61,071 bases of DNA from Rhodopila globiformis (GTDB lineage Bacteria > Pseudomonadota > Alphaproteobacteria > Acetobacterales > Acetobacteraceae), in contig NZ_NHRY01000223.1 in assembly GCF_002937115.1 (NCBI RefSeq), positions 1 to 61,071 on the forward strand, written 5' to 3'. Under the pieces are notes generated by a model that saw nothing but the letters and a program-made list of their open reading frames with translations, had not been told where the DNA came from and did not search any database. Position 1 is the first letter of the stretch. Every line of letters starts with the position of its first letter. The position numbers and the translations under genes were made by a program. Below, piece after piece: positions 10,136 to 52,202 of the stretch.

Positions 10136-11726
10136 CGGCCTCGCCCGGGACACCGAACGCCACGGTCCCGTCGCGCTCGATCTGGTGCACCAGGTCGATT
10201 TCCCAGGACAGGTAGGCGTGCATCGCCGCCTCGACGCCAGCGTTGCGGTCATACGGCCGCAGGTAAAAATCGATGCAGGCCTCGTCGGGCGGCGTGGCGC
10301 GGTCCTTGACCAGGGGACGGCCGAACGCGTGCCAGGCCTCGGTGCCGCCTTCCAGCACGTGCACCTGCGCCGTGGTGAGCGTCCTGGCCTCCGGCACCGC
10401 CAGCCGCGCCAGCAGGCCGTCCGGCGAGGTGAGCACGACGTGGCCGGCGGCGGAAAGCTGCCCCCGCAGCGGCTCCAGCCGCCCGCGTATGCCCCAGATC
10501 GCGCCGGGGATGTGGCCCTCGCGGAACTCAATGCTGCGGGCCAGGTCCAGCACAACGGTACGGGCGGCGCTGTCGAGCAGGCGGACGCAGGCGCTGACGT
10601 CGATCAGGTCCACCGGCGCGCCCAGTTCCGGCACCGGGACCACGGCGGGGGCGGTGGTGCGGACCGCTTCCAGCCCGCCCTCGACGACGAAGACGTCGCG
10701 GTGGCCCATCTGGCGCAGCCACGCGGCAGTCATGCGGGCGCGCACGCCAGTGTCGTCGACCAGCACGATGCGGGCGTTGCGCACGCCGATCCACTGGTCG
10801 GTGGCCTGGACCAGCTGGCCGCCGGGGGCGTTGCGGCTGCCGGGACGGTGGCCGGCGCGGAACTCCGCCGGGTCGCGCACGTCCAGCACATACAGCGTGC
10901 GGTCGGGATCGTCCTCGAACCGGGACAGGTCGAGGGGCCCGATGACGCCGACGCCGGAGTGCTCGGCGAAGGCCTGGGCGCGCTTCAGCGCCAGCGAGGT
11001 GGTCTTCGGCGTGCCCGGCTGGTATTTGTCGGTGCGGCCGCGGTCGCAGCGCAGCCCGGCCAGCTCCCATCCCATCGTGCCGTTGCGCAGCGCCACCACC
11101 TTGTTGGGGATGCCGGCGCGGCGCAGGCTCTCGGCGCCCAGGATGCTGCGGGTGCGGCCAGCGCAGTTGACCACCACGAGGGTCTTCGGGTCGGGCGCGA
11201 TGTCGCCGATGCGATAGACCAGTTCGCCGCCCGGCACGCTGATCCCGGTGGGGATCGACATGCGGGTGAACTCCTCCATGGTGCGGCTGTCCAGCACCAC
11301 CATGTCGCGGCCGGAATCGATCCAGGCTTTCAGCTCCCGCGCATCGACGCTTTCGGTGCCGAAGTGGTGCTCCACCCATTCGCCGAACGCCTTGGAGGGG
11401 ACGTTGACGCCGCTGAACAGCTCGTAGCCGGCGGCTTCCCAGGCCGGGGTGCCGCCGTCCAGGACGGAGACGTCGGTAAAGCCGACGGATTCCAGCCATG
11501 CCGCCAGGCTTTCCGCGACGCCGCGCCCGTCATCGACGCAGCAGGCCCGCACCGACTGGCGCGGCGCCAGTGCCCGGACGCGCATTTCCCGGCGCGCCAG
11601 GCCGCACGGCACTGCCCAGAACAGGTGCGAGGCGCCGAACTCCCCATCCTCGCGGGCGTCCAGCAGGGCGAGTTCCTCCCCGTCGGTGATCCAGCTGCGC
11701 AATGTCTCGGCGGTGATGCGTTTCAT
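10122..11726 (-). CDS. Rhodanese-domain sulfurtransferase, four tandem domains
   Basis: This 534-residue cytosolic protein contains four rhodanese-like repeats. Domain 1 starts ELALLDAREDGEF, domain 2 DMVVLDSRTMEEF, domain 3 LYVLDVRDPAEFRAGH and domain 4 TVVLDLARSIEFREGHIPGA. Only domain 2 has the active-site Cys (VVVNCAGRTRS, about residue 188). The loops in domains 1, 3 and 4 read ACCVDDGRG, LVDDTGVR and LTSPDG, with no Cys at that position in 3 and 4. It should transfer sulfane sulfur; the other domains may be structural. It overlaps comF downstream and is divergent from the methyltransferase at 11810. Confidence 0.88.
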   Translation of the reverse strand: MKRITAETLRSWITDGEELALLDAREDGEFGASHLFWAVPCGLARREMRVRALAPRQSVRACCVDDGRGVAESLAAWLESVGFTDVSVLDGGTPAWEAAGYELFSGVNVPSKAFGEWVEHHFGTESVDARELKAWIDSGRDMVVLDSRTMEEFTRMSIPTGISVPGGELVYRIGDIAPDPKTLVVVNCAGRTRSILGAESLRRAGIPNKVVALRNGTMGWELAGLRCDRGRTDKYQPGTPKTTSLALKRAQAFAEHSGVGVIGPLDLSRFEDDPDRTLYVLDVRDPAEFRAGHRPGSRNAPGGQLVQATDQWIGVRNARIVLVDDTGVRARMTAAWLRQMGHRDVFVVEGGLEAVRTTAPAVVPVPELGAPVDLIDVSACVRLLDSAARTVVLDLARSIEFREGHIPGAIWGIRGRLEPLRGQLSAAGHVVLTSPDGLLARLAVPEARTLTTAQVHVLEGGTEAWHAFGRPLVKDRATPPDEACIDFYLRPYDRNAGVEAAMHAYLSWEIDLVHQIERDGTVAFGVPGEADAVA

Positions 11727-12607: not shown

Positions 12608-13096
12608 GGGTTCGTCAGGCGATGGTCGTCCCTCCGGCGTTGGTCGATGGTCGTCCCTCTATCGTCATGGCCGGGCGTGTCCCGGCCATCTGCGCTTCGA
12701 CGGTGGGGGGCGGATGGCCGGGACACGCCCTACGGGATGCACAGATCTCGGAAACGGTCCGCCGCTGCGTTTCCCTTTCGTCATGGCCCGGCTTGTCCGG
12801 GCCACCTATTCCAGCACGTGTGCCGCGACAGGTGGCCCGGACAAGCCGGGCCATGACGATGGGGGAACGCTCTTGGCGCCCGGGCAAGCACTTGATTTTA
12901 CGGTCATTTCCCACTCGTTTCCAGGATGTGTGCATTGCGTAGGGACACGCCCGGCCATGACGGTGAGAGAACGGCCGCGGTGAGGCAACGGCCGCTCCCA
13001 TTTTCCGCCGTCGCGGTGCCGGCTTCCCCGTCCGGCGTTGACGCTGCCCACCCGCCTGCCGACTATGCCGCGCGAAGCAGAACACAGGAGCGTCCA
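12608..13096. repeat. REP palindrome cluster
   Basis: No gene. Successive inverted REP pairs are seen: 12663-12730 (loop GTGT type), 12783-12856 (GGCCCGGCTTGTCCGGGCC type, arms separated by a spacer with CCAGCACGTGTGCCGCG) and a half element ending CCGGCCATGACGG near 12962. The motif ATGCACAGATCTCGGAAACG at 12738-12757 and its relative near 12902-12945 (TTTCCAGGATGTGTGCAT) accompany the REPs. AGGAG at 13086-13090 serves the next gene. Confidence 0.75.
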
Positions 13097-28632: not shown

Positions 28633-29515
28633 GCGCGGCCGCAAGGGGACAGGACGCGGGCGCGGTGCCTGGACATGGCGGCGCAGCCGGTACGAGCCCG
28701 CGCGGTACAAGCCCTTGCGGCGCCGGCCCGGCGCGCGTCCGCGGTGGCATGGCTGCGGTACGCGTCCGCGAGGCCTCCGCGCAGGCGGTTGGCCAGACGC
28801 CTTGCTGTCATGCGCCTTGCCTGGCAGATGGCGGGGGCACGACCGCGGCGCCCGGCATTCGATCCGGACGGGCGAGTGTATCCGATGTCATGATGCGCGT
28901 CTTATACGTGCAACGAACGACTGGCAGTAGTCCAGAGTCCGGTTTCGGGTGAAATTTTCGCAATCCGGTGCTGATATGACACGGAAGCGGCGCCAGGGGC
29001 GGCGAACGTTCCTGCTCCGCCACGGTCTGGCTTGTCCGGGCCACCGGTCCGGGGCACCCGTGCCGCGACAGGTGATCCGGACGCGCCGCATGGGCGCTGG
29101 GATAGAGAGCTGGCATAGAGAGACAGGGCCGGGTCCATTGCCTCTCCGTCATGGCCGGGCGTGTCCCGGCCATCCGCGCTTCGACGGTGGGGGTAGATGG
29201 CCGGGACACGCCCCATGAGCGCTAACTTGGCGGGTGGACGGCACGGCCGTTGCTACCCCGTCATGGTGGGCGAAGGCTCACCATCCACGCGTTTTGCCGA
29301 TACCAGCATCGAAGGCGTGGATGGCGGCCCTGCGGCGGCCATGACGACAGGACGGTGCGCCGTGTCCCGTCGCCTAAGTCAGCGCCTATGGGGACACGCC
29401 CGGCCATGACGATGCGAGAACGTGCCCCGGCCATGGCGGGTCGGGGCAGGCCCGGCGGACGGCCTGGCGGCGCCGCCCTCGCGGATTCAGATTCCATTAC
29501 GCAATATATACGATC
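28633..29515. repeat. REP-rich intergenic region
   Basis: No gene is supported. REP palindromes occur at about 29030-29075 (GGCTTGTCCGGGCCAC form), 29148-29217 (inverted pair around GCGCTTCGACGGTGGGGG) and 29390-29410. A segment near 29271-29345 (CATCCACGCG...GGCGTGGATGGCGGCCC) resembles stretches near 41525 and 49690, a further repeat type. 28880-28980 is less G+C-rich and featureless. Confidence 0.6.
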
Positions 29516-41061: not shown

Positions 41062-41273
41062 GGTGCCGATGTCCCGGTTCTGTCCTGTGCGCTGGCGATG
41101 ACATGGGATGCCGGGATGCCGGTGCCAAGCATGGCTGCGATTGGCGCCCCTCGGGACGGGAACGGAGCAGACCGTAGCCCGCCCGATCGGTGCGACGTGG
41201 TCTGTAAAGGGTCTGTCAGGGAATAACAGCGTCACTGGCTGCACGGCACCGGCTGCACGACGTCGTCATGGCG

Positions 41274-41525
41274 GGCGCAGGCCCCATTGGCGTTAAAATA
41301 GGGCTGGCTGTTGCCTCCTCGTCATGGCCCGGCTTGTCCGGGCCACCTGTCGCGGCACAAGTGCTTGAATAGGTGGCCCGGACAAGCCGGGCCATGACGG
41401 GGAGGCAACAGTCGCGGCGGACCGTTTCCAAGATCTGTGCATCCCGTAGGGACAAGCCGGGCCATGACGGAATGGCAAGCATCGTGCCGCCGCCACGCTA
41501 TTTTAACGCCAATGGGGCGCAGGCC
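41274..41525. mobile_element. MITE A copy 1 with 10-bp target duplication, carrying REP units
   Basis: The element 41284-41515 (232 bp) begins CCATTGGCGTTAAAATAG and ends with its complement. It is flanked by the exact 10-bp repeat GGCGCAGGCC (41274-41283 and 41516-41525). The interior starts GGCTGGCTGTTGCCTCCTC and carries two inverted REP units (GGCCCGGCTTGTCCGGGCC) separated by the spacer CACCTGTCGCGGCACAAGTG. A third half unit and the motif CCGTTTCCAAGATCTGTGCA follow, ending AATGGCAAGCATCGTGCCGC. It has no coding capacity. The long duplication points to an IS4-type transposase acting in trans; that is inference. Confidence 0.85.
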
Positions 41526-41650
41526 GGCCATCCACGCCTTTGCCGCGATCAGCACCGCAAGGTCCGCCTTCGCGGACCATGACGCGGAGAGGACGGTGCC
41601 CCACACCCAATGACGCGGTAATTTCCTGACCGCCCCAAGGGTCCGGGCGC
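41526..41650. other. Intergenic sequence downstream of pdxA
   Basis: Short stretch with a CATCCACGCC...GATCAGCACCGCAAGG repeat also found near 49690. No gene. Confidence 0.4.
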
Positions 41651-42643
41651 TCAATGCCCCGGGGCCAGGGCGACGGCTTGGCGCAGTGCTTCCAGCAGGC
41701 TGCGCTCGTCCGCCTGGCCGGTGCCGGCGATGTCGAACGCCGTGCCGTGGTCCACCGAGGTGCGGATCACCGGCAGGCCGACGGTGATGTTCACGCCGGC
41801 CTCCAGCCCCATCACCTTCACCGGGCCGTGGCCCTGGTCGTGGTACATGGCGACCACCATGTCGAAGTCGCCGCGGCCGGCGCGGAAGAACAGGGTATCG
41901 GCCGGCAGCGGGCCTTCCACGTCCCAGCCCCTGGCCTGGCAGGCGGTGATGGCGGGGACGATCTTGGTTTCCTCCTCGCCGCGGCCGAACAGGCCGTGCT
42001 CGCCGGCATGCGGATTGATGGCGCAGACGCCGATTTTCAGGCGCGGCAGGCCGGCCTTCACCAGCACGTCGCGGCCGCGGCCGATCACCCGCTCGACCAG
42101 CCCGGGCTCGATCTTCGCGATGGCGTCCAGCAGCCCGATATGGGTGGTGACGTGGATGACGCGCAGGTTCGGTGTCATCAGCATCATCGAGACCTCCGGC
42201 GTGCCGGTCAGGGCGGCCAGCAACTCGGTGTGGCCGGGGTAGCGATGGCCGCCGAGGTGGAGCGCCTCCTTGTTCAGCGGCGCCGTGCAGATCGCGTCCA
42301 CCTGGCCCTGCACGGCAAGCCCGGTCGCGGTGCGGATGTAATGGTAGGCGGCGTTGCCGGCGGCCGCCGACAGTTGGCCCCAGGGCAGGTCGTCCGGGAT
42401 CAGGCGCAGGTCGATGCAGTCGACGCTGCCGGCGGTGCAGCGCCGGTCGTCGATCGATCCGAGGCTGCTCACCGCCAGGCTGCTGCCGACGATCCTGCCG
42501 GCCTGCCGCAGCCGGTTGGCGTCGCCGACGACGACCGGGCAGCAGCGCTCGTACAAGTCGGCGTGCGCCAGGCTCTTCATGATGATTTCCGGGCCGACCC
42601 CGGCGGCGTCGCCCATGGTGATCGCGATGACAGGACGTGGCAT
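41651..42643 (-). CDS. pdxA2: PdxA-like 4-phospho-D-threonate/erythronate dehydrogenase (PdxA2)
   Basis: This 330-residue NAD-dependent dehydrogenase belongs to the PdxA family: AITMGDAAGVGPEIIMKSLA, TAPLNKEALHLGGHRYPGHT, the metal His in THIGLLDAIA, and MYHDQGHGPVKV (about residue 267). Its start lies 2 bases beyond the stop of a DUF1537 kinase gene. In established pathways the pair acts on D-threonate or D-erythronate: the kinase makes a 4-phosphate and PdxA2 oxidises and decarboxylates it to dihydroxyacetone phosphate. Context therefore favours catabolism over vitamin B6 synthesis, although B6 function cannot be excluded. Confidence 0.85.
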   Translation of the reverse strand: MPRPVIAITMGDAAGVGPEIIMKSLAHADLYERCCPVVVGDANRLRQAGRIVGSSLAVSSLGSIDDRRCTAGSVDCIDLRLIPDDLPWGQLSAAAGNAAYHYIRTATGLAVQGQVDAICTAPLNKEALHLGGHRYPGHTELLAALTGTPEVSMMLMTPNLRVIHVTTHIGLLDAIAKIEPGLVERVIGRGRDVLVKAGLPRLKIGVCAINPHAGEHGLFGRGEEETKIVPAITACQARGWDVEGPLPADTLFFRAGRGDFDMVVAMYHDQGHGPVKVMGLEAGVNITVGLPVIRTSVDHGTAFDIAGTGQADERSLLEALRQAVALAPGH

Positions 42644-42645
42644 GG

Positions 42646-43947
42646 TCAGCTTGTCTCCGCTCGGTTGGCGGCGCCTGGCGCGGACCGCAAGGCGGCGCGG
42701 CAGCGCAGCAGCGTCCCGGGATGGCCGAAGGCGCCGGCCTTGGTGATCACCGGCAGGCCGCGCCCGCCGATGGCAGTGGACAGGGGTACGCCCGGTTCCA
42801 GCTCGCCGGCAAGCCGCAGCCCGGTCGCGCCGAGGGCGAGCAGCACGGCGCGTGCCGTCTCGCCCCCGGTGAGGACCAGGGCGCCGGCCCGGTGGACGCA
42901 CGGCGCCACCAGCGCCGCCAGGGCGAGGCACAGCGGCAGCCCGTCCGCCAGGTTCACGCCGCCCTCGCTGTCCAGCGAAACCACCGTGTCGTGGCCGGCA
43001 GCCAGGGCAGCCTCCACTGCGCGGCGCCAGGCGTGCCAGTCCGCGGTCCGCAGCACCGCGGGCGGGACAGTGACGAGGCCGACATCCGGAGCCGCCGCCA
43101 GCCGCGCCACCTGCTCGCGCGATATGCGTGAGGCGCTGCCGACGACGAACAGCAGCGGCCCCGCGCAGGGCGGCGGCGGTTCCACGGGCCGATGGGACCG
43201 CAGGCCGGCCGCCGCGGGCAGATGACGGGCGAGGCCGGCCGAGCCAGCCCAGACAGTATGCCGCCCCAGCGATACCGAGGCTGTGGCGATGGCCTGAAGA
43301 TCGGCCTCGGCATCGGCGTCGCAGACGATGACGTCGTGGCCGATGGCCGCTTCGGACAGCGCGGCGGGAAGCCTGGATGCGTCGCGGACCGTGTCGAGGG
43401 GGATGGACATGGCACGCAGGCCGGCCGCGTCCAGCATGGTGGGGATATGCGCCGCGCCGGCGATCCGTTCGGCTTTCCACAGCTCGGTGTGCTCCAGCCG
43501 GACGCCGTGCAGCAACTGGTGGCCGCCGGATGTGGTGCGCCCGGTGGCGGGAAAGGCGGGCGCCATGATGGCGGCTGCATCGCCGTGCAGCGCCCGCCGC
43601 GCCGCCAGCGTTGCGGCGATCTCGGCACCGACGTTGCCGCGCAGGGTGGAGTCCAGCTTCTTGAACAGGACCTGTCCGGGAGCGGCCTGCGCGCGCACGA
43701 TGCGGGCGGTTGCCGCCGCCGCCTCGGCCGCCGGCTTGCGGCGGGTGTCGGCGTCGACGGCGAGGACAGCCGCGCCGACTGGGTCATCGGCCGCATCGAG
43801 CAGCACAACGGTGTCGAGGCCGGCCACGGCGCAGGCGACGCCGCAATCGGCGGCCCCGGACAGGTCGTCCGCGACGATGAGCATCCCGGCGGGCAGCATC
43901 CCGGCGGGCAGCATCCCGGCGGGCAGCATCCCGGCGGGCTCGGTCAT
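42646..43947 (-). CDS. Four-carbon acid sugar kinase family protein (DUF1537)
   Basis: This 433-residue protein shows the DUF1537 (OtnK/DtnK/DenK) layout. The N-terminal domain has IVADDLSGAADCGVACAVAG and FKKLDSTLRGNVGAEIAATL. The C-terminal nucleotide-binding domain has VSLDSEGG, GALVLTGGETARAVLLALG and GLPVITKAGAFGHPGTLL. It should phosphorylate a four-carbon sugar acid such as threonate or erythronate with ATP. The N-terminus holds four PAGML units encoded by 15-bp repeats, each with an ATG, so the true start is ambiguous between 43947 and the ATG nearest LIVADD. It is coupled to pdxA2. Confidence 0.87.
   Translation of the reverse strand: MTEPAGMLPAGMLPAGMLPAGMLIVADDLSGAADCGVACAVAGLDTVVLLDAADDPVGAAVLAVDADTRRKPAAEAAAATARIVRAQAAPGQVLFKKLDSTLRGNVGAEIAATLAARRALHGDAAAIMAPAFPATGRTTSGGHQLLHGVRLEHTELWKAERIAGAAHIPTMLDAAGLRAMSIPLDTVRDASRLPAALSEAAIGHDVIVCDADAEADLQAIATASVSLGRHTVWAGSAGLARHLPAAAGLRSHRPVEPPPPCAGPLLFVVGSASRISREQVARLAAAPDVGLVTVPPAVLRTADWHAWRRAVEAALAAGHDTVVSLDSEGGVNLADGLPLCLALAALVAPCVHRAGALVLTGGETARAVLLALGATGLRLAGELEPGVPLSTAIGGRGLPVITKAGAFGHPGTLLRCRAALRSAPGAANRAETS
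43881..43940 (-). repeat. 15-bp tandem repeat encoding PAGML x4 at N-terminus
   Basis: Four copies of GCATCCCGGCGGGCA (the last ending in T) encode PAGML repeats at the very start of the DUF1537 kinase. On the coding strand each unit contains GGG followed by ATG, so each offers an alternative initiation codon in the same frame. Confidence 0.88.
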
Positions 43948-44393
43948 CGTCCGGTCGCCCGGCCATGACGGAGATGGGCCGTCCCGGGGGCCGGATCTTC
44001 CTTCATCCGGCGCCTCATCCCGGCACCTGTGGGGCGGGTCGCCGGGGAGGCCGGTGGCGCGGGAAGCGATCGGCGGCGTGTTCCAGGACGTTGGGCATGA
44101 CGCAGATATGGGTGTCTCGTGGCCCACACACAGGGATCGCGCCGGCACGCTGAGGCAAAGCCGCCCCGGGTGCGGCGCCGAGTTGGGAGCACAGGCCATC
44201 CGAGCACGGGTCAGGGGCACGCGCCAACGGCAAGCCGGCGATAATTGTTCTTGATTTGTTCGATAGGGCGTCTAATATCCAGCCGACAGGGACAAGTCAT
44301 CAGGGACAAGTCATCAGGGACAAATCATCAGGGACAAATCATCAGGGACAAATCATCAGGGACAAATCATCAGGGACAAAGAGGGAACTCACG
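43948..44393. other. Divergent intergenic region with 14-bp repeats
   Basis: This gap lies between the kinase and the divergent zinc-ribbon gene. The left part (43950-44230) has no recognisable feature. 44240-44290 is A+T-richer (AATTGTTCTTGATTTGTTCG) and probably contains the promoter of the zinc-ribbon gene. The right part is the tandem repeat array. Confidence 0.45.
44288..44380 (+). repeat. 14-bp tandem repeat array in gene leader, six full copies
   Basis: Six consecutive units (AGGGACAAGTCATC twice, then AGGGACAAATCATC four times) are followed by a partial seventh, AGGGACAAA. The array ends 13 bases before the ATG at 44394 and runs into the ribosome site GAGGGA. The unit is not a multiple of three and lies outside the coding region. 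Confidence 0.9.
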
Positions 44394-44828
44394 ATGCAAC
44401 ACCACAACATGCAAGACAACAGGATGCAGGGCAGGATGCACTGCAAACAGTGCGGCGGCCCGATGATGCCGGAAACCGTGATCAAGCTTCGGCGCGGCCT
44501 GATCGGCTTTCGCGAAACACGCTTCCCGGGCGCCTATTGCGCGTGGTGCCGGATCGGCGTGACGATCGGGGGGGACTGCGCCGCCGGGCACCGGCAGGTT
44601 TCGGTCATGGCCGACCTGGGCCGGAGCATCCGGCAATTGCTGGCATCCTGGTCGGGTGCCGGCGCCTCCCGGTCAACCGGCGGCCGTTGGGGCGCGAAGC
44701 CATCCGGCGGTCTTGTTCCCTGGCGCGGCCGGTCTCGCGGCAGGCCGTTCTGGGTGCCGCCTCGCCAGCACCCGGCCACCCTCGAGCCGCCAAGGGCGGG
44801 CGCGGCCGGCGGCTTTCATCCCACGTAA
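44394..44828 (+). CDS. Small zinc-ribbon-like protein
   Basis: This 144-residue protein carries a two-knuckle Cys motif: HCKQCGGPMMPE (about residue 17) and GAYCAWCRIG (about 49), spaced about 30 residues apart, as in treble-clef/zinc-ribbon domains. The N-terminus is Met/Gln/His-rich and the C-terminal half is Gly/Arg/Pro-rich and probably disordered. The ATG at 44394 has GAGGGA upstream. Short zinc-ribbon proteins often bind nucleic acid or act as chaperone adapters; the function here is unknown. The gene is preceded by a 14-bp tandem repeat array in its leader. Confidence 0.65.
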   Translation: MQHHNMQDNRMQGRMHCKQCGGPMMPETVIKLRRGLIGFRETRFPGAYCAWCRIGVTIGGDCAAGHRQVSVMADLGRSIRQLLASWSGAGASRSTGGRWGAKPSGGLVPWRGRSRGRPFWVPPRQHPATLEPPRAGAAGGFHPT

Positions 44829-44865
44829 TGCCGATCGCCGGCCGTCGGGCTTGTTGGACCTGGGG
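44829..44865. other. Short gap before MITE A copy 2
   Basis: No feature seen. Confidence 0.4.
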
Positions 44866-45043
44866 GAAAGCCCTCCGATTGGCGTTAAAACAGGGCTGGC
44901 TGTTGCCTCCTCGTCATGGCCCGGCTTGTCCGGGCCACCTGTCGCGGCACAGTGCTGGAATAGGTGGCCCGGACAAGCCGGGCCATGACGGAATGGCAAG
45001 CATCGTGCCGCCACGCTATTTTAACGCCAATGGGAAAGCCCTC
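44866..45043. mobile_element. MITE A copy 2 with 10-bp target duplication
   Basis: The element 44876-45033 (158 bp) has the same ends as copy 1: left end ATTGGCGTTAAAACAG with one change, right end CTATTTTAACGCCAAT. It is flanked by GAAAGCCCTC at 44866-44875 and 45034-45043. The interior carries one pair of inverted REP units with the spacer CACCTGTCGCGGCACAGTGC. Compared with copy 1 it lacks the third REP half unit and its adjoining motif. Confidence 0.85.
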
Positions 45044-45488
45044 CACCGTTTGCCCTGGCCGTGGCTGGCATGGGCCGGGGACGCGCGGCGGAGGGCGCCA
45101 GCGTTGCCAGGAAACGTCCGTGCCTGTTCATCCTTTCGCAGTTTTCACCACGGAGGAGGAACGAGGTACACGAAGGGCCACGAAGACCGGACCTTGCTGG
45201 CCTGTCGGGACCGGACAAACCGCCTTGTTGCGGCGAGCCATTGCGGTCCAATACCCGCCTGCGACGTGGAGTTACACAGCCATCCCGGCACACTGTCCCG
45301 GCAGCGTATCGAGCGCCTCGCCCATGCCGGCGTGCAGGCCATTGCCGAAATCGGCATCGGCGTGCGAGGCCCTGGCGACGGCCACGGCCTGCCGCACGAC
45401 ATGCTGCGCCGGCGGGATGATTCGGCTATAACCCCTGGCCAGGGGGTGCTGCTCACCGGACGCCGTGCACCAGGCCAGGATTCACGCC
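45044..45488. other. Intergenic region before DUF1841 gene
   Basis: No gene supported. A segment near 45138-45185 (TTTTCACCACGGAGG...ACGAAGGGCCACGAAG) belongs to the CACAGAG/CACGAAG-type boundary repeats also seen near 33780, 49495 and 51595. The promoter of the DUF1841 gene should lie at the right end. Confidence 0.4.
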
Positions 45489-45872
45489 ATGACCATCGAC
45501 CATTACAATCCACTGCACGCGCCAGACCCGGCCGAATGGCTGGAACTGGACGAACAGGAGCGGATCGGCCTCGTTGCCGACTACCATGACGAGGCGGGCA
45601 TCGATCTGCCGAACGTGAAGGTGCATGCGACGATGCATGCGATCGTCGAGAACCAGATCGCCCTCGGCGACGAAACGCCGGTGCGGCTCAAGGCCCGCCA
45701 GCTCATGGCGCAGGGCCTCGACCGTCACGAGGCGATCCACGCCATCGCGTCCGTGCTGATCAAGCACATCTACGACATCACGAAGAAGCCGCAGGGCGTG
45801 GGCGACCCGAACCAGGGCTATTACGCAGCCCTGCGGCGGCTGAACGCGCGCAAGTGGCTGCGCTCGGGCTGA
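45489..45872 (+). CDS. DUF1841-like protein
   Basis: This 127-residue soluble protein matches the small DUF1841-type family. It has PDPAEWLELDEQERIGLVAD (with the YH dyad in ADYHDEAG), VHATMHAIVENQIALGDE, and a C-terminal HEAIHAIASVLIKHIYDI with the double His. The His/Glu pattern (HATMHAIVE and HEAIHA) suggests a metal site. The ATG at 45489 is chosen; an in-frame ATG at 45465 would add eight residues. It is convergent with TspO. Function of the family is not established. Confidence 0.72.
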   Translation: MTIDHYNPLHAPDPAEWLELDEQERIGLVADYHDEAGIDLPNVKVHATMHAIVENQIALGDETPVRLKARQLMAQGLDRHEAIHAIASVLIKHIYDITKKPQGVGDPNQGYYAALRRLNARKWLRSG

Positions 45873-45918
45873 CGCGGCCGATCGGCTGCCGCGCCAGCCC
45901 GTGGCCGAAACGGCGGTA

Positions 45919-46434
45919 CTAACGCCCGGCCCGAGCATCCAGGGCCGAGCCGGTGCCGATGCCGAACGGCCGGTTGAGCCGCACGACCGTCAGGTTGAGA
46001 TAGGCGGCAAAGGCAACCCAGCACAGGTACGGCAGCAGCAATGCGCCGGCCGCCGTGGATATCGGCCACAGCACCAGCATCGGCACCAGGACCGAAAGCC
46101 ACAGGAACGGCACCTCGACCAGCGCCCAGTCCGGACGCCGCAGCCAGAAGAACAGCGGGTTCCACAGGATGTTCGCCAGGCCGTTCACCACGAACAGGCC
46201 GATGATCAGCGAGCGGGTGCCCGAATCCGGGGCATCCCGCAGTCCCAGGAACAGCGACAGGGCCGCCAGGGCGAAGATCACCGACCACGCCGGGCCGAAC
46301 GCCCAGTCCGGCGGCTGCCAGCTTGGCTTCTTCAAAACCTCGCGGTACCAGGGCGAGAGGCTGTCGGTCAGGTAGGCCCCGACCGTCGCGACCACCACCG
46401 CCCAACCCACTGCGATGACAATATCCAGGATCAT
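45919..46434 (-). CDS. tspO: TspO/MBR family tryptophan-rich sensory protein
   Basis: This 171-residue five-helix membrane protein has the family's Trp-rich pattern: SPWYREVLKKPSWQPPDWAF, GPAWSVIFALAALSLFLGLR, NGLANILWNPLFFWLRRPDW (the conserved N-x-x-W/F core) and WPISTAAGALLLPYLCWVAF ending in YLNLTVVRLN. TspO binds porphyrins and, in Rhodobacter, down-regulates pigment genes in response to oxygen. The ATG at 46434 has AGGAGG 7 bases upstream. The nearness of bchO (0.8 kb, divergent) fits a photosynthesis connection. Confidence 0.9.
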   Translation of the reverse strand: MILDIVIAVGWAVVVATVGAYLTDSLSPWYREVLKKPSWQPPDWAFGPAWSVIFALAALSLFLGLRDAPDSGTRSLIIGLFVVNGLANILWNPLFFWLRRPDWALVEVPFLWLSVLVPMLVLWPISTAAGALLLPYLCWVAFAAYLNLTVVRLNRPFGIGTGSALDARAGR

Positions 46435-47265
46435 GCGTCAACCTCCTGACCACTGCGACTGAAGCAACTGTCAAACGGACGGACGCCGTCATTGTTGTCG
46501 CAGGCGTCGCGGCGGTCATTACCGCCGGATTGCCTGCTTCGACAAGGGTACACCGACCGGAAATTGGCAAGTGGCAAGCACGGAGCCGCTTTGAATGGCG
46601 TCGTCACGGCGGATTGCTTCAAGTTACCTTGTGCATTGGCGGCTTGTATCTTGCCTGACGTCAGGCCAGCCTGACGGTGTTACGCCGATGATCGTTGCCC
46701 CCGCGGCGCTTCAGGCAGGAATTCCGCCTATATATTTGTATTTACTTTGATCGAATGGATGTTCGCCGCGCCGGCGCGTGTTTTCGTGCCGGATAAGGTC
46801 CTTTTTGCACGATCCTGCGCTGGCGGCGGCGCAATCCCACCGGACGTGTCCACCGCGGTACCCACCGGACCGCCCGGCGTGTCACGCGCGGCCTGGCCCT
46901 GTGACAACCGTTCGTTACAGCTGACAAAGCGTCTTGACCACTCAGCCTTGATGCAACGCGGGCCGGCAGAACGGCTTTAGATGTCGCGGTGAAACCGCTT
47001 CTTCCGGAAGGCAGCGAACGTATCCCTGGTGCCGCCGGTTTTGAGGCGGCCGAACCGTTGCAAGTAAAAAGGGGCAGTCGCCAATGTCGTCTTTTCCAGG
47101 CTGCACGCAGGCCGTGACCGGCCGCGAAAGGCACCGGCGGCTACATCTTGCGGTCAAATATCGATCTGGAAGAGCAAGCTTCCGCCAGGCGTGCCTTGCC
47201 GTGCCAGGGCCGGCGCCGCAGCGGCGAACCGAGCCGGACTCCGCCGCCGCACCGGCGGTGGCGCC
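46435..47265. other. Divergent intergenic region between tspO and bchO
   Basis: About 830 bases without a supported gene. It is A+T-richer near 46725-46760 (TATATATTTGTATTTACTTTG) than any flanking sequence, and contains a 14-bp perfect palindrome at 46653-46666. Regulatory sequence for the two photosynthesis-linked genes is the likely content. Confidence 0.5.
46653..46666. promoter_or_regulatory. Perfect palindrome GCCTGACGTCAGGC
   Basis: A 14-bp perfect inverted repeat lies in the divergent region between tspO and bchO, about 220 bases from the tspO start. It is a candidate operator. It does not match the TGT-N12-ACA form used by PpsR, so the factor is unknown. Confidence 0.45.
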
Positions 47266-48237
47266 ATGACGCGCGGCAGGGCGCTGGACTGGTCCACCGA
47301 CGGCGCGGACTGGCCCAATCGCCACAGCAGCCGCTTCGTCACGGCCGCCGACCTGACGTGGCACGTGCAGACGATGGGACAGGGGCCGGTGCTGCTGCTG
47401 GCCCACGGCACCGGCTCCTCCACCCACAGCTGGCGCGACCTGATGCCGCGGCTGGCGCGGTACTTCACCGTCGTCGCCCCGGACCTGCTGGGGCACGGCT
47501 TCACCGGGACACCGCGTACAAGCGGCATAACGCTGGCGGCCATGGCGGCCGGGCTGGAGGCGCTGCTGCAGGCGCTTGGCGTCGCGCCGGCGGTGGCGGT
47601 GGGACATTCGGCCGGCGCGGCGATCCTGACGCGGCTGGTGGTTGGCGGATCCATCCCCGCGCCTGCGGTGCTGGTCGCGCTGAACGGCGCGATGCTGCCG
47701 ATCCCGGGCCTGACCGGGCATGTCATGCGGGCGGCGGCGAAAATGCTGGCGTTCAGCCCGGCCGTACCCTGGATGGTCAGCTGCCGGACGCGGCAGCCTC
47801 GCACTGTCGAGAAGATGATCGCCAACACCGGCAGCACGCTGACCGCCGCCGGCATCGGCTATTACGCGCGCCTGATGGGCAGCCCGCTGCACGTGCGCAA
47901 CGTCCTGAACATGCTGGCCGGCTGGGACCTGCGCCAGACCGTGCGCGACCTGCCCTCGCTGCCGTGCCGCCTGGTGCTGGTCACGGCCGACGGCGACCGC
48001 GCGTTGCCGCCGCACGTCGCCCGCCGGACGGCGGCGCTGGTGCCGGGCAGCGAACTGGTCGTGCACCGGAGTTACGGCCACCTGTCGCACGAGGAAGCCC
48101 CGGAGGAAACCGCGGACCTCATCCTCCGCGCGGCGCAAGCCTCGGGCGTTCCGGTGGCGCGGGACAGCGGCGGGCAACTTCCGGTGCCGCCGCGGTGGCG
48201 CGGCAACACCGAGCGGCCGATCCACGCTGCGGCCTAG
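47266..48237 (+). CDS. bchO: Alpha/beta hydrolase BchO, magnesium-chelatase accessory type
   Basis: This 323-residue alpha/beta hydrolase starts with the BchO signature LDWSTDGADWPNRHSSRFVT followed by LTWHVQTMGQGPVLLLAHGT and GSSTHSWRDLMPRLARYFTV. The nucleophile motif is VAVGHSAGAAIL (Ser about 116), and the His is in RSYGHLSHEEAPEETADLIL. bchO accompanies magnesium chelatase genes in photosynthesis clusters of purple bacteria and is thought to help that step. No bchI or bchD is adjacent in this window. The ATG at 47266 gives the expected start; earlier codons in frame are not family-like. Confidence 0.82.
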   Translation: MTRGRALDWSTDGADWPNRHSSRFVTAADLTWHVQTMGQGPVLLLAHGTGSSTHSWRDLMPRLARYFTVVAPDLLGHGFTGTPRTSGITLAAMAAGLEALLQALGVAPAVAVGHSAGAAILTRLVVGGSIPAPAVLVALNGAMLPIPGLTGHVMRAAAKMLAFSPAVPWMVSCRTRQPRTVEKMIANTGSTLTAAGIGYYARLMGSPLHVRNVLNMLAGWDLRQTVRDLPSLPCRLVLVTADGDRALPPHVARRTAALVPGSELVVHRSYGHLSHEEAPEETADLILRAAQASGVPVARDSGGQLPVPPRWRGNTERPIHAAA

Positions 48238-48462
48238 CCCGCCGGCCAGGCTACGCACAGTCCGCTTCCGTATCGGTGTGCAACCGGGCCGGTCACGCTG
48301 CAGGCAGGTTCGCCGGGCCGGCTTGCAGCGTGGACCCGTTTCTGATTTATTACGATGACAGTGCGGGTCATGCACGCGAGGAGGAATTTGGTCCATGGTT
48401 GGTCATCGGATTGTCAGGAACCGCATTTTCCGGAGCGGCGCCGCCGGGGCAAAGGCCGTGTC

Positions 48463-48939
48463 ATGAAGCGGCATGTCCTGCTTGCCCTCGTCTGCCTGGG
48501 ATGCAGCCCGGCGCTCGCGCAAACCGGCGCCGGCATGGTCGACGGCGACTGGATCGGCAAGGGCGCCTTCCAGCTGGGGCCGACCGTCCTTGCATGCTCC
48601 GAGATCAGGATGAAGTTCGTCGGGACTTCGACCCTGTATGGGGTCCGCGATGGATCCATCGTCTGCGAGAGCCAGACGCAGAATTTTCCGATGCACGACG
48701 ATTTCGAGGTGAAGCCGGACAACGAGGTGTACTACAAGAACCAGAAGGTCGGCCGCATCACCGGCGACCGGCTGGTTGTGCTGGTTCCCGGGCCGAACGA
48801 CGTCGGAACGGAATTCACCCTGCGCCGCGAAGGCGATCTGCTCTACTACAACGAAGTCGCGCGCAAGCCGGGCCAGCCGCCGATGTTCGGCATGGTGGCG
48901 ATCATGCAGAAGGACAGGAACGCCGCCGCCAAGCCCTGA
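48463..48939 (+). CDS. Secreted hypothetical protein, 158 aa
   Basis: A signal peptide (KRHVLLALVCLGCSPALAQT) opens this 158-residue protein; cleavage is likely after ALA near residue 19. The mature part is beta-rich (GDWIGKGAFQLGPTVLACSE, MKFVGTSTLYGVRDGSIVCE, YYKNQKVGRITGDRLVVLVP) with two Cys that could form a disulfide, and an acidic to basic C-terminus. The pattern of a small periplasmic beta-barrel is clear, but no named family is recognised. Start at ATG 48463; it stands alone. Confidence 0.7.
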   Translation: MKRHVLLALVCLGCSPALAQTGAGMVDGDWIGKGAFQLGPTVLACSEIRMKFVGTSTLYGVRDGSIVCESQTQNFPMHDDFEVKPDNEVYYKNQKVGRITGDRLVVLVPGPNDVGTEFTLRREGDLLYYNEVARKPGQPPMFGMVAIMQKDRNAAAKP

Positions 48940-49990
48940 TCGGGCGCGGTCCGGCCCGGGCGACACCGGGATCGAGGCAGTGCCGGCCGTCCCTGCAACG
49001 TGGTGCTCCTATGAAAATGCGGACCCGCGGGCGCGATCGTCGCTCAATCGTCATGGCCGGGCGTGTCCCGGCCATGACGGGGAGGCACCGGACCCCTTGC
49101 CCATTTTCCGCTGTCGCGGTGCCGGTGCCGCCGGCTGGCCAACTCCGTGTTGAAGCGCGGTGGCCAATGCGCCCCGGTCGCAACCCCCTCGGCACACCCC
49201 GCCCGGTCCGGCATGAGGCGGATTTCCAGGGGGGATGGGCGATGGGGCTGCACCGTCCAGTGCGACAGATCCGGTGTCCGTGCTGTTGCAGCCTGCGATT
49301 TTCAACACGAAGTTAGCCAGCCGGCGCGCCGGCACCGCAATGGCCGAAAATGGGCGAGATCGGTGCCACCCCGTCATGGCCCGGCTTGTCCGGGCCACCC
49401 GTCGCGGCATAAGTGCTTGAATAGGTGGCCCGGACAAGCCGGGCCATGACGCTCGCGAACAAGCGTCCCGAAGCGTATTTTCATGGTAGGAAAGCGAAGA
49501 ATCCACAAAGGGCCACGAAGGTTTTGGACTCCCCACATGGGTGAGACACGAAATCGGACACAGCTGGTTTCCATCTCTTCCCCAACGATCCCGGCAGGCC
49601 CGTCCCAACCTGTGTAATACCAGGCGCCCGAAATTCTGACACGTTGGCACTGGTCACTCATCGTCATGCCGGGCAAAGGCCCGGCATCCACGCCTTCGCC
49701 TGTATCAGCACCGCAAGGCTTGGATGGCGGCCCTACGGCCGCCATGACGGGTGGAGCGGTCCGTGCCAAGCAGTCAGAAATTCGGGCGCCTGGTATAATT
49801 GATTGCATCCTCACGTTTGCGGGGCCACCCCCTCACCTGGGTTTTATTATGCCTCGACTGCATCCTGGCCGACACTGGTGTATTGACTCAGTATTTCACC
49901 ACCATCCGCGCTCGGCGGCTCACTTGTTGTTTTACGCTCATTTGGCGGAGCGGCCCTTTACGCGGCGCCGGCGCGGCATCACTTGGGGAC
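48940..49990. repeat. Intergenic region with REP units and a MITE
   Basis: About 1.05 kb without a supported gene. REP units lie at 49051-49078 and as an inverted pair at 49374-49448 (spacer CACCCGTCGCGGCATAAGTG). A boundary repeat of the CACAAAGGGCCACGAAGG type is near 49500. MITE C occupies 49619-49796 (listed separately). The leader of the carotenoid oxygenase gene fills the right end. Confidence 0.65.
49619..49796. mobile_element. MITE C with long imperfect terminal inverted repeats
   Basis: The left end ATACCAGGCGCCCGAAATTC (49619-49638) is matched in inverse at 49777-49796 with one or two mismatches. Weaker complementarity continues inward (CACGTTGGCACTGG against CCGTGCCAAGCAG), giving about 40-bp arms. 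The interior carries a different palindrome (CATGCCGGGCAAAGGCCCGGCA) and a CATCCACGCC repeat. No clean target duplication could be read. Non-coding, probably transposase-dependent. Confidence 0.65.
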
Positions 49991-51406
49991 ATGATGTCAC
50001 AGGCAACGACACTGGAACGAGCTGTCCGCTGGGTCTCCAGCCAGGCGCAGAGGCGGGTGCCGTTCGACGCCACCAACCTGTATCTCGAAGGCCCCTTCGC
50101 GCCCGTGCACGCCGAGGTGACGCAAACCGCCCTGGCGGTCACCGGAACGCTGCCGAAAGAACTGAACGGGGTGTATGCCCGCATCGGCCCCAATCCGGTG
50201 GACGTCGCCAACCCGGCCACCCACCACTGGTTCCTCGGCGCCGGCATGGTCCACGGCGTGCGCCTGCGCGACGGCAAGGCGCTGTGGTATCGCAACCGCT
50301 GGATCGGCACCGACAGCGTGCAGCAGCGGCTCAACCGTCCCATCGCGCCGGGGCCGCGCCGCGGCGACGTCGACATCGTCAATACGAACATCATCGGCCA
50401 CGCCGGACACCTGTGGGCCCTGGTGGAGGGCGCGGCACTGCCGGTCGCGCTCGACCATGAGTTCAACACGCTGCGCCATGGCCTGTTCGCCGACACCGCC
50501 TCACGCTCTTTCTCCGCGCATCCGCGGCTCGACCCGGAAACCGGGGACCTGCACGCCGTGTGCTACGACGTGAAAAACCGCAACCGGGTGGACTACGTCG
50601 TCATCGGCGCCGACGGCATGCTGCGGCGGCAGGTCGGCATTCCGGTGCGCCATGGCCCGATGATCCACGATGGCGCGGTGACGCGGTCGCAGGTGGTGAT
50701 CCTCGACCTGCCGGTGACGTTCTCCATGGGCGCGCTGCTGCGCGGGCATCCGCTTCCCTATACCTGGAACGACCGCCACACGGCTCGCGTCGGCCTGCTG
50801 CCGCGCGACGCGGACGCCGGCGCGATACGCTGGTTCGAGATCGAGCCGTGCTATGTGTTCCACATCGCCAACGCTTACGATCATGACGACGGCAGCACGG
50901 TGGTCGACGTCATCGCCTATCCGCGGATGTTCGATATCTCGCGCCATGGCCCCGAAGGATTCAACAGCCGGCTCGAGCGATGGGTCCTCGATCCGGCCGG
51001 CACGCAGGTGAAGCGCAGCGTCGTCTCCGACCTGCAGCAGGAGTTTCCGCGCTGCGACGATCGCCGGGCCGGACGCGGCTATCGTTACGCCTACAGTGTC
51101 GGCATCACGCTCGATACGCTCGGGCCGCAGCCGTTGTACCGGCACGACCTGGCGACGGGCGCGCTGCTCCGCCACGACTACGGTCCGCACCACATGCCGG
51201 CCGAGGCGGTGTTCGTGCCGCGCCACCCGGACGCGGCCGAGGACGACGGCTGGCTGATCGCGTTCGTCTATGACCTGCGCAACGACAGCAGCACGCTGGT
51301 GGTGCTGGATGCCGGCAACCTGGACGGGGAGCCTGCGGCGACGATCCATCTGCCGGTGCGGGTGCCGCTGGGGTTCCACGGCAACTGGATTGCCGATGCG
51401 GGGTAG
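49991..51406 (+). CDS. Carotenoid oxygenase family protein
   Basis: This 471-residue protein belongs to the carotenoid cleavage oxygenase/RPE65 family, seven-bladed propeller Fe2+ enzymes. Family wording is clear: LNGVYARIGPNPVDVANPAT, HHWFLGAGMVHGVRLRDGKA, FSAHPRLDPETGDLHAVCYD, GPMIHDGAVTRSQVVILDLP, CYVFHIANAYDHDDGSTVVD and the final VPLGFHGNWIAD. The four iron-binding His fall in SAHP, MIHD, VFHI and FHGNW. It should split a double bond of a carotenoid or apocarotenoid. ATG codons 49991 and 49994 are adjacent starts. Confidence 0.9.
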   Translation: MMSQATTLERAVRWVSSQAQRRVPFDATNLYLEGPFAPVHAEVTQTALAVTGTLPKELNGVYARIGPNPVDVANPATHHWFLGAGMVHGVRLRDGKALWYRNRWIGTDSVQQRLNRPIAPGPRRGDVDIVNTNIIGHAGHLWALVEGAALPVALDHEFNTLRHGLFADTASRSFSAHPRLDPETGDLHAVCYDVKNRNRVDYVVIGADGMLRRQVGIPVRHGPMIHDGAVTRSQVVILDLPVTFSMGALLRGHPLPYTWNDRHTARVGLLPRDADAGAIRWFEIEPCYVFHIANAYDHDDGSTVVDVIAYPRMFDISRHGPEGFNSRLERWVLDPAGTQVKRSVVSDLQQEFPRCDDRRAGRGYRYAYSVGITLDTLGPQPLYRHDLATGALLRHDYGPHHMPAEAVFVPRHPDAAEDDGWLIAFVYDLRNDSSTLVVLDAGNLDGEPAATIHLPVRVPLGFHGNWIADAG

Positions 51407-52202
51407 AGGCTGGGAGTTTGGGCGGGAGAGCGGCAGTCTCGCCTGATCGGCGGCCGTGATGGCGTGGTTTGGGCTTGGGGAGAAGCAACCAATGCGCCGG
51501 AGCGGGCACACCGGCCCCTCCGCCTCGTGCAGCCAGGCCCGGCATGGATGCGCCACCGGCGGCAGGCGTGCGAGCGGATGGTCCGGACATGTAACCACAG
51601 AGAAAAAGCTGAGAACCGCAGAGTTGGCCAGTCGGCGGCGCCGGCACCGCGATGACCGAAAATGGGCGAGAGGCCGTTACCTCTCCGTCATGGCCGGGCG
51701 TCTCCCGGCCATCCCCCCAGCCGTCGAAGCGCGGATGGCCGGGACACGCCCCATTGGCGTTAAAATAGGGCTGGCTGTTGCCTCCTCGTCATGGCCCGGC
51801 TTGTCCGGGCCATGACGGAATGGCAAGCATCGTGCCGCCGCCACGCTATTTTAACGCCAATGCGGGACACGCCCGGCCATGACGATAGGGAGACGACCTG
51901 GCTCTGCCCTGCCATTGGCGCCTGTGGGGCCGCATTTTCATAGGAGGGCCGCAGAGACATCGTCATTGCGCTGCGCGCGACGCGCATGGCAACCAGCATT
52001 GCTGAAATACACGATGCCGGACATCGCCGCCCGACCAGGCGCGTGAATCCGCCTGGACCCGTATCCGCGTCCGCACCAGCCCGCGCGACGTCCCCCTGAT
52101 CCTCAGCGGCCCTCCGCAGCCCTCCATCCTTCTCTGTGCGACCGGAAATGCGCCATCAACCACGCTGCTCCCGCCGGGGAGGCACCATATCAAACCACGC
52201 CG
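51407..52202. repeat. Intergenic region with REP units, MITE A copy 3 and an IR element
   Basis: No gene. REP units at 51687-51745, MITE A copy 3 (51741-51873, listed separately), a REP half at 51870-51882 and the inverted-repeat element 51940-52165 (left GGGCCGCAGAGACATCGTC, right CCTTCTCTGTGCGACC) fill the gap. A CAGAGAAAAAGCTGAGAACC boundary repeat is near 51600. Confidence 0.65.
51741..51873. mobile_element. MITE A copy 3 with 10-bp target duplication
   Basis: The element 51751-51863 (113 bp) has ends CCATTGGCGTTAAAATAG and CTATTTTAACGCCAAT. It is flanked by GGGACACGCC at 51741-51750 and 51864-51873. This is the shortest copy: the interior has a single REP palindrome. The insertion sits in the loop of a REP hairpin (the joined target would read GGCCGGGACACGCCCGGCC). 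This shows REP loops can be targets as well as cargo. Confidence 0.88.

Follow-up and report, generated by a model that had tools for sequence, protein, structure and literature searches.

Putative miniature elements with IS186-like ends that carry REPs, and often sit in them, in Rhodopila globiformis

Paired repetitive extragenic palindromic (REP) sequences of the REPIN type (REP doublets forming hairpins) bear a GTAG tag and are mobilised by a RAYT (REP-associated tyrosine transposase) gene. REPs tagged CGTC are reported mostly from Alphaproteobacteria; in the sections drawn on here, the paper defining them leaves the mobilising agent open and mentions, from other species, REP dimers within longer palindromes (PMC3733652). 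REPs are also known as targets of insertion sequences (IS), among them the IS4-family element ISRm22 (subgroup IS4Sa) of Sinorhizobium meliloti, all ten listed copies of which (10/10, Table 2) are reported to lie in REPs, at the palindrome axis (PMC1525189, PMC2266710). Here we describe three short elements in a 61,071-nt stretch of Rhodopila globiformis DNA (NZ_NHRY01000223.1, assembly GCF_002937115.1; the whole stretch is called the window). Sequence comparison suggests that they are very probably miniature inverted-repeat transposable elements (MITEs), that is, non-autonomous relatives of an IS186-like, IS4-type IS, moved in trans by its transposase; they belong to a family, F1a, that carries REPs throughout and is often found inserted in REPs.

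The initial annotation of this DNA had noticed three copies with common ends, and these are present where it placed them; the outermost C and G, which it had counted to the ends, belong to the duplicated target, leaving elements of 230, 156 and 111 bp. The shared ends are terminal inverted repeats of 17 bp, and the elements are bounded by CAT...ATG, copy 2 starting with G in place of C. With longest open stretches of 71, 51 and 33 aa, copies 1, 2 and 3 contain no transposase gene. The 18-bp form of the end occurs six times in the window (at most three mismatches), where 0.01 would be expected from shuffles; an Rfam search of the window gave 0 matches. The copies are composed as follows (a strand is given where one was assigned):

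41285..41514, + strand: MITE F1a copy 1, 230 bp, ends CATTGGCGTTAAAATAG
41273..41284: 12-bp target duplication to the left of copy 1, GGGCGCAGGCCC, in the middle of a REP-B hairpin
41515..41526: its counterpart to the right of copy 1, GGGCGCAGGCCG, 11/12 identical
41320..41399: REP-A dimer (CGTC REPs, inverted pair) inside copy 1
41432..41449, - strand: end of the second MITE family, F2 (GATCTGTGCATCCCGTAG), inside copy 1, then a REP half at 41450-41469
44877..45032, + strand: MITE F1a copy 2, 156 bp, at a site outside any REP
44865..44876: 12-bp target duplication to the left of copy 2, GGAAAGCCCTCC
45033..45044: its 12-bp counterpart to the right of copy 2, GGAAAGCCCTCC, 12/12
44912..44990: REP-A dimer inside copy 2
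51752..51862, + strand: MITE F1a copy 3, 111 bp
51740..51751: 12-bp target duplication to the left of copy 3, CGGGACACGCCC, in the middle of a REP-C hairpin; L253 and L254 are the empty sites
51863..51874: its 12-bp counterpart to the right of copy 3, CGGGACACGCCC, 12/12
51787..51817: single REP-A hairpin inside copy 3

The duplications, first described as 10 bp long and perfect in every case, are perfect at copies 2 and 3 but not at copy 1, and their length is 12 bp. The latter follows from sites edged by bases other than G and C, at which the longer duplication still matches (for example TGTCAACCGCCG at L045), and from two paralogous empty sites, L253 and L254, in each of which the stretches aligned with the left and the right flank of copy 3 share exactly 12 bp; a 10-bp duplication is ruled out on the same grounds, that is, by sites without G at position 1 or C at position 12 and by the empty sites. 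A few copies, such as L041, fit an 11-bp duplication. The insertion of copy 3 within a REP was read correctly, and copy 1 lies in a REP as well. As for the three, two and one REP units ascribed to the interiors, the single hairpin of copy 3 stands, copy 2 holds one REP-A dimer, and copy 1 combines a REP-A dimer with a REP half beside the F2 end, which accounts for its third REP half.

Elements of this kind are numerous in the genome. The 18-bp end (at most two mismatches) is found at 143 places in the 7.25 Mb, and the reversed pattern at none; 100 of the 143 places were listed, and 62 stretches fetched around them gave 56 two-ended F1a elements, the window copies included, a number that is a lower bound for the genome. 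Alternative pairings were set aside, at L088 (409 bp) and L095 (230 bp) before the cargo survey and at L088 (409 bp) before the duplications and flanks were counted. Measured from ATTGG to CCAAT the elements span 109 to 387 bp, with 31/56 at 154-158 bp. A 12-bp duplication is exact in 23/56 and has at most one mismatch in 34/56, a level reached by 10.7% of cross-paired flanks; a mobile element that duplicates its target had been proposed, with other copies lacking duplications named as the contrary outcome, and most copies do have one. In a relative (G008), eight two-ended elements retain both flanks (two further ones at contig edges were left aside); the duplication has at most one mismatch in five of them, and seven have a REP-arm motif. 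F1a-type ends flank other REP dimers in relatives.

Homologous recombination between REPs, or gene conversion, might also be thought to have produced the common flanks with no transposition at all; the REPs are near-identical, and L059, L086 and L088 have mixed flanks, resembling the recombinants reported for ISRm22, some copies of which have recombinant flanks (PMC1525189). We consider this highly improbable, since distinct duplications occur where the site is atypical or no REP (copy 2; L045, TGTCAACCGCCG; L092, CGGCAGCGCCCC) and empty sites overlap by 12 bp; by these two observations recombination is ruled out as the sole source of the shared flanks.

The initial annotation held that the element both carries and targets REPs, and both habits are seen across the family. 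A CGTC-type REP tag is present in 56/56 F1a copies and at least two tags in 50/56, whereas 8.0% of random 157-bp windows have one tag. Most copies hold a REP-A dimer, consisting of CGTCATGGCCCGGCTTGTCCGGGCCA, a spacer and the inverted copy; the spacer is seen in both orientations, as expected if inverted REPs recombine. In some elements, halves that belong to different families meet at a REP, and these hybrids, together with the inverted spacers, suggest recombination between REPs, by which a dimer may first have entered a MITE.

REP-like sequence on both sides, the stricter of two tests, was found for 36/56 copies as compared to 1.2% of 20,000 random 12-mers; a REP-arm motif on one side or both was found for 43/56 as compared to 6.4% of random sites. 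The insertion point is often the centre of the REP hairpin, GGG-N5/6-CCC, the loop of REP-B offering GGG-N6-CCC and that of REP-C GGG-N5-CCC; 300 uninterrupted REP-B places (at most three mismatches) occur in the genome. The left duplication fits GGGN6CCC in 30/56 and GGN8CC in 35/56 copies. This preference could reflect the motif only: the transposase would read just a GG...CC dyad, many intergenic GGGN6CCC sites would be REPs anyway, and insertions into genes would have been purged. IS186 itself (IS186/IS421), an IS4-family element of E. coli, is reported to favour GGGG(N6/7)CCCC targets (PMC6925257), and insertions outside REPs (copy 2, L071, L092) keep GG...CC-like sites. The question was followed in an 849-kb sample of the genome made up of the window and 40 stretches (788 kb), 20 of them from contigs that have F1a copies elsewhere and the other 20 from contigs found in REP listings; its REP density may be high, and, the window aside, no stretch was selected by MITE ends. 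There, 71/321 GGGN6CCC motifs have a REP-arm motif, and so do 51/131 of those outside called genes, a sizeable share that is in keeping with the motif as sole determinant; among the GGGN6CCC insertions of F1a, however, the figure is 25/30 (odds ratio 7.8 versus intergenic sites, p = 1e-5). This excess over the motif-only expectation would favour a role of the hairpin, as support rather than proof, the gene caller being crude and the result suggestive, not decisive; recognition of the dyad alone is a real but minority possibility.

An autonomous partner with the same ends and an IS4-like transposase had been predicted; an intact one was found in the same genus, but none in the R. globiformis genome itself. 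In two cases with only one end, L034 (this genome, at the edge of a contig) and L110 (another genome, G005), the sequence opens into a transposase-like frame. The complete partner, L138 in genome G020, is 1359 bp long, has the ends CATAGGCGTTAAAATAG and CATAGGCGTTAAAATAA, encodes one 368-aa open reading frame and has REP-like sequence on both flanks. Its transposase is 41% identical over 359 aa to InsL of IS186A from E. coli, contains the Y(2)R(3)E(6)K motif (YRLRWQIELAFKRLK at 308) and has catalytic spacings of 54 and 140 residues, the values for InsL being 54 and 141; the first spacing of both falls below the range given for the IS4 family, D(60-110)D(100-150)E (PMC2266710). It passes Pfam DDE_Tnp_1 with 55.2 (cut-off 23). 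The ends of IS186 (CATAAGCGCTAACTTAAG) and those of the partner (CATAGGCGTTAAAATAG) are clearly related, and a GC-rich dyad as target is shared (PMC6925257). In contrast, IS186A at dnaJ/hokC has a 10-bp duplication (read from L166) instead of 12 bp, and in R. globiformis the partner is rare or decayed while non-autonomous, REP-carrying copies dominate the genome. The label "IS186-like" for the F1a partner is drawn from the comparison with InsL and should be read as provisional to that extent; CAT ends and duplications of 10-12 bp, as listed for subgroup IS231, also fit F1a (PMC2266710 Table 1). ISRm22, which resembles F1a in its choice of REPs, differs in its 6-bp direct repeats and in being a full-length IS, no REP cargo or MITE being described in the parts of its report drawn on here (PMC1525189). 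A related full-length element was seen in a further genome (G032; L140, 15-1453), with ends ATAAGCGTTAGGATA and a transposase 49% identical to that of L110; it is flanked by two unlike GC-rich dyad sites.

Several findings weigh against regarding the copies as REP-targeting MITEs of an IS186-like element. The transposase of L138 scores 114.4 bits on NCBIfam transpos_IS4_1, just under the cut-off of 115 (InsL reaches 133.3), and at L138 itself the duplication, for which about one helix turn is expected in the IS4 family, agrees in only 10/12 bases. A search of the R. globiformis genome for an IS186-like transposase gave three partial matches and no intact one, so current mobility is unproven; the best of them, L034, is a C-terminal stretch with a broken frame at the edge of a contig, and the assembly may have lost more. 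At the 12-bp register 22/56 duplications have two or more mismatches, some of which represent 11-bp duplications or mixed flanks while others appear decayed. The two-sided REP test fails for 20/56 copies, and 13/56 are without any REP-arm motif, so REPs are preferred, not required. Empty sites, proposed as a check by the initial annotation, were obtained for copy 3 as the two paralogous ones described above but not in synteny: three relatives have matches to the left and to the right flank of copy 3, in each case on separate contigs. Finally, a neutral scan of the 849-kb sample, looking for exact duplications of at least 9 bp with matching terminal repeats and blind to the known ends and to REPs, gave 35 matches, but 9 in the control too; an earlier version of the scan, based on hairpin arms, gave 15 versus 16 in the control.

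According to our own reading of the 35 matches, 22 have recurrent end types (five of these in the window), and the remaining 13 appear to be chance matches, as the control would lead one to expect; among the 22, 18 lie clearly in REP hairpins, two are doubtful and two do not, and a REP tag is present in 20. Beyond the three copies first noticed, the window holds two more elements, which makes five:

29214..29390: fourth element, family F1b, IS186-like variant ends CATGAGCGCTAACTTGG / CATAGGCGCTGACTTAG, REP-B-type dimer as cargo; host site a REP-C, 11-bp duplication GGGACACGCCC
12730..12942: fifth element, family F2, 213 bp, ends CTACGGGATGCACAGATC / CTACGCAATGCACACATC (IS50/Tn5-like), REP-A dimer as cargo; host site a REP-C, 9-bp duplication GGACACGCC

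The ends of F1a and F1b are both IS186-like. Family F2, with ends CTACGGGATGCACACATC at 245 places genome-wide (at most one mismatch), is a second and more abundant MITE that shares both habits, sitting in REPs and carrying them: among 18 elements in the sample, 11 have exact 9-bp duplications, 16 lie in REPs and all 18 have REP cargo. By hand comparison, F2 ends (CTACGGGATGCACACATCT) fit the pattern CW------Y---CA-A--W- tabulated for IS50, and the 9-bp duplication is within the 8-9 bp of IS50 (PMC2266710 Table 1). Unlike IS50/Tn5, F2 is known without an intact transposase; none was found between F2 ends, and decayed IS4_3-type transposase stretches were matched only at L233, beside one F2-like end (three mismatches) located in a REP-C. 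In a search for IS50-type transposases with Pfam PF02281, the control itself was silent.

Elements are also nested in one another, with further families taking part. F2b is similar to F2, and F3 has CAT ends (CATGCGTATCAGGATAGG); at L181 an F2b MITE (11409-11593) is nested within a REP of an F3 element (11340-11722), and at L038 an element with variant ends lies within the REP-A loop of an F1a copy. Family F4, TA-flanked and presumably IS630-like by that criterion, also carries a REP-A dimer. TA-flanked repeats with ends CAGCAGACCGCAGGT, or close to it, and a REP-A dimer were seen at L201 (about 10186-10265), L173 (3767-3846), L190 (6260-6339) and L195 (1731-1810), the one in L201 apparently interrupting an end that belongs to an F1b-type element. 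A REP-A dimer is also seen within a longer repeat, ATGAAAATACGCTTCGGGACGC ... TGGCTAACTCCGTG, that lacks recognised ends, at 49372-49451 of the window and at L192 (17224), L193 (13316) and L195 (12623).

How much of the REP population is accounted for in this way differs between REP types. Within the sample, units inside elements with both ends recognised amount to 44/129 for REP-A, 8/68 for REP-B and 5/81 for REP-C; most REP-B and REP-C are thus not cargo of recognised families. A flank test was restricted to REP-A dimers of 74-82 bp whose spacer is of the REP-A type (of 46 pairs, 32 qualified and had sufficient flank, many of the others being REP-C-like): a repeated flank on at least one side was found for 31/32 of these, on both sides for 27, and for 14/27 REP-C dimers, as compared to 24/400 random 40-mers. 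Free-standing REP-A dimers are thus very rare here. In a test blind to element ends, direct repeats of at least 10 bp flank 19/96 REP dimers, the shuffled mean being 4.6 and the maximum 9. The suggestion of the initial annotation that such an element could explain how REPs spread here holds up well for REP-A, of whose spread carriage by MITEs appears to be the best available, if partly supported, account, but weakly for REP-B and REP-C, most of which it seems to leave unaccounted for.

It has to be considered whether the dimers themselves are the active mobile units, REPIN-like and moved by some other enzyme, which entered several MITE families as passive hosts. Like REPINs, the unit is an inverted REP pair, and the same type of REP-A dimer, bounded by CGTC...GACG, occurs in F1a, F2, F3, F4/F5 and F6 contexts. 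However, the repeated flanks leave almost none free-standing as a freshly moved unit would be, and recombination is indicated by the hybrid flanks and the inverted spacers. Further, the tag is CGTC, not GTAG, and no Y1 (RAYT-type) transposase was detected: PF01797 had 0 matches in the 98.55% complete genome, while the control was positive in 5/14 genomes. Independent mobility of the dimers is therefore regarded as unlikely, and carriage of REP-A by MITEs is preferred.

On that preferred reading, the F1a elements would transpose by cut-and-paste, as described for IS4-family elements, their transposase being drawn to the GG...CC dyad of REP loops, perhaps aided by the hairpin arms; every landing would add REPs, that is, new landing sites, and nested islands of REPs and MITEs would result. 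The CGTC-tagged REPs described earlier are matched in their tags, here found in cargo and targets alike, and in their inverted dimers; they differ in that the dimers seen here lie inside elements with transposase-type ends, which themselves sit in REPs. What looks new is the set of MITEs, their ends representing two or more IS4 subgroups, that have REPs as targets and as cargo and are nested in each other; no MITE that both carries and targets REPs was found in the titles and abstract openings of the open-access (PMC) literature matching the search terms.

For one class among the REPs whose mobilising agent was left open, a testable answer is thereby offered: REP-A rides in MITEs with IS4-family-like ends, and these MITEs prefer REP loops. 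It also suggests a route by which nested hairpin islands may grow between genes. More tentatively, and with chances that we place somewhat short of even, the CGTC REPs of the genus, together with IS4-type MITEs from two or more unrelated subgroups, might form a self-reinforcing system in which borrowed transposases multiply hairpins that lack one of their own; if this is true, a similar scheme may underlie CGTC-REP dimers embedded in longer palindromes elsewhere in bacteria.

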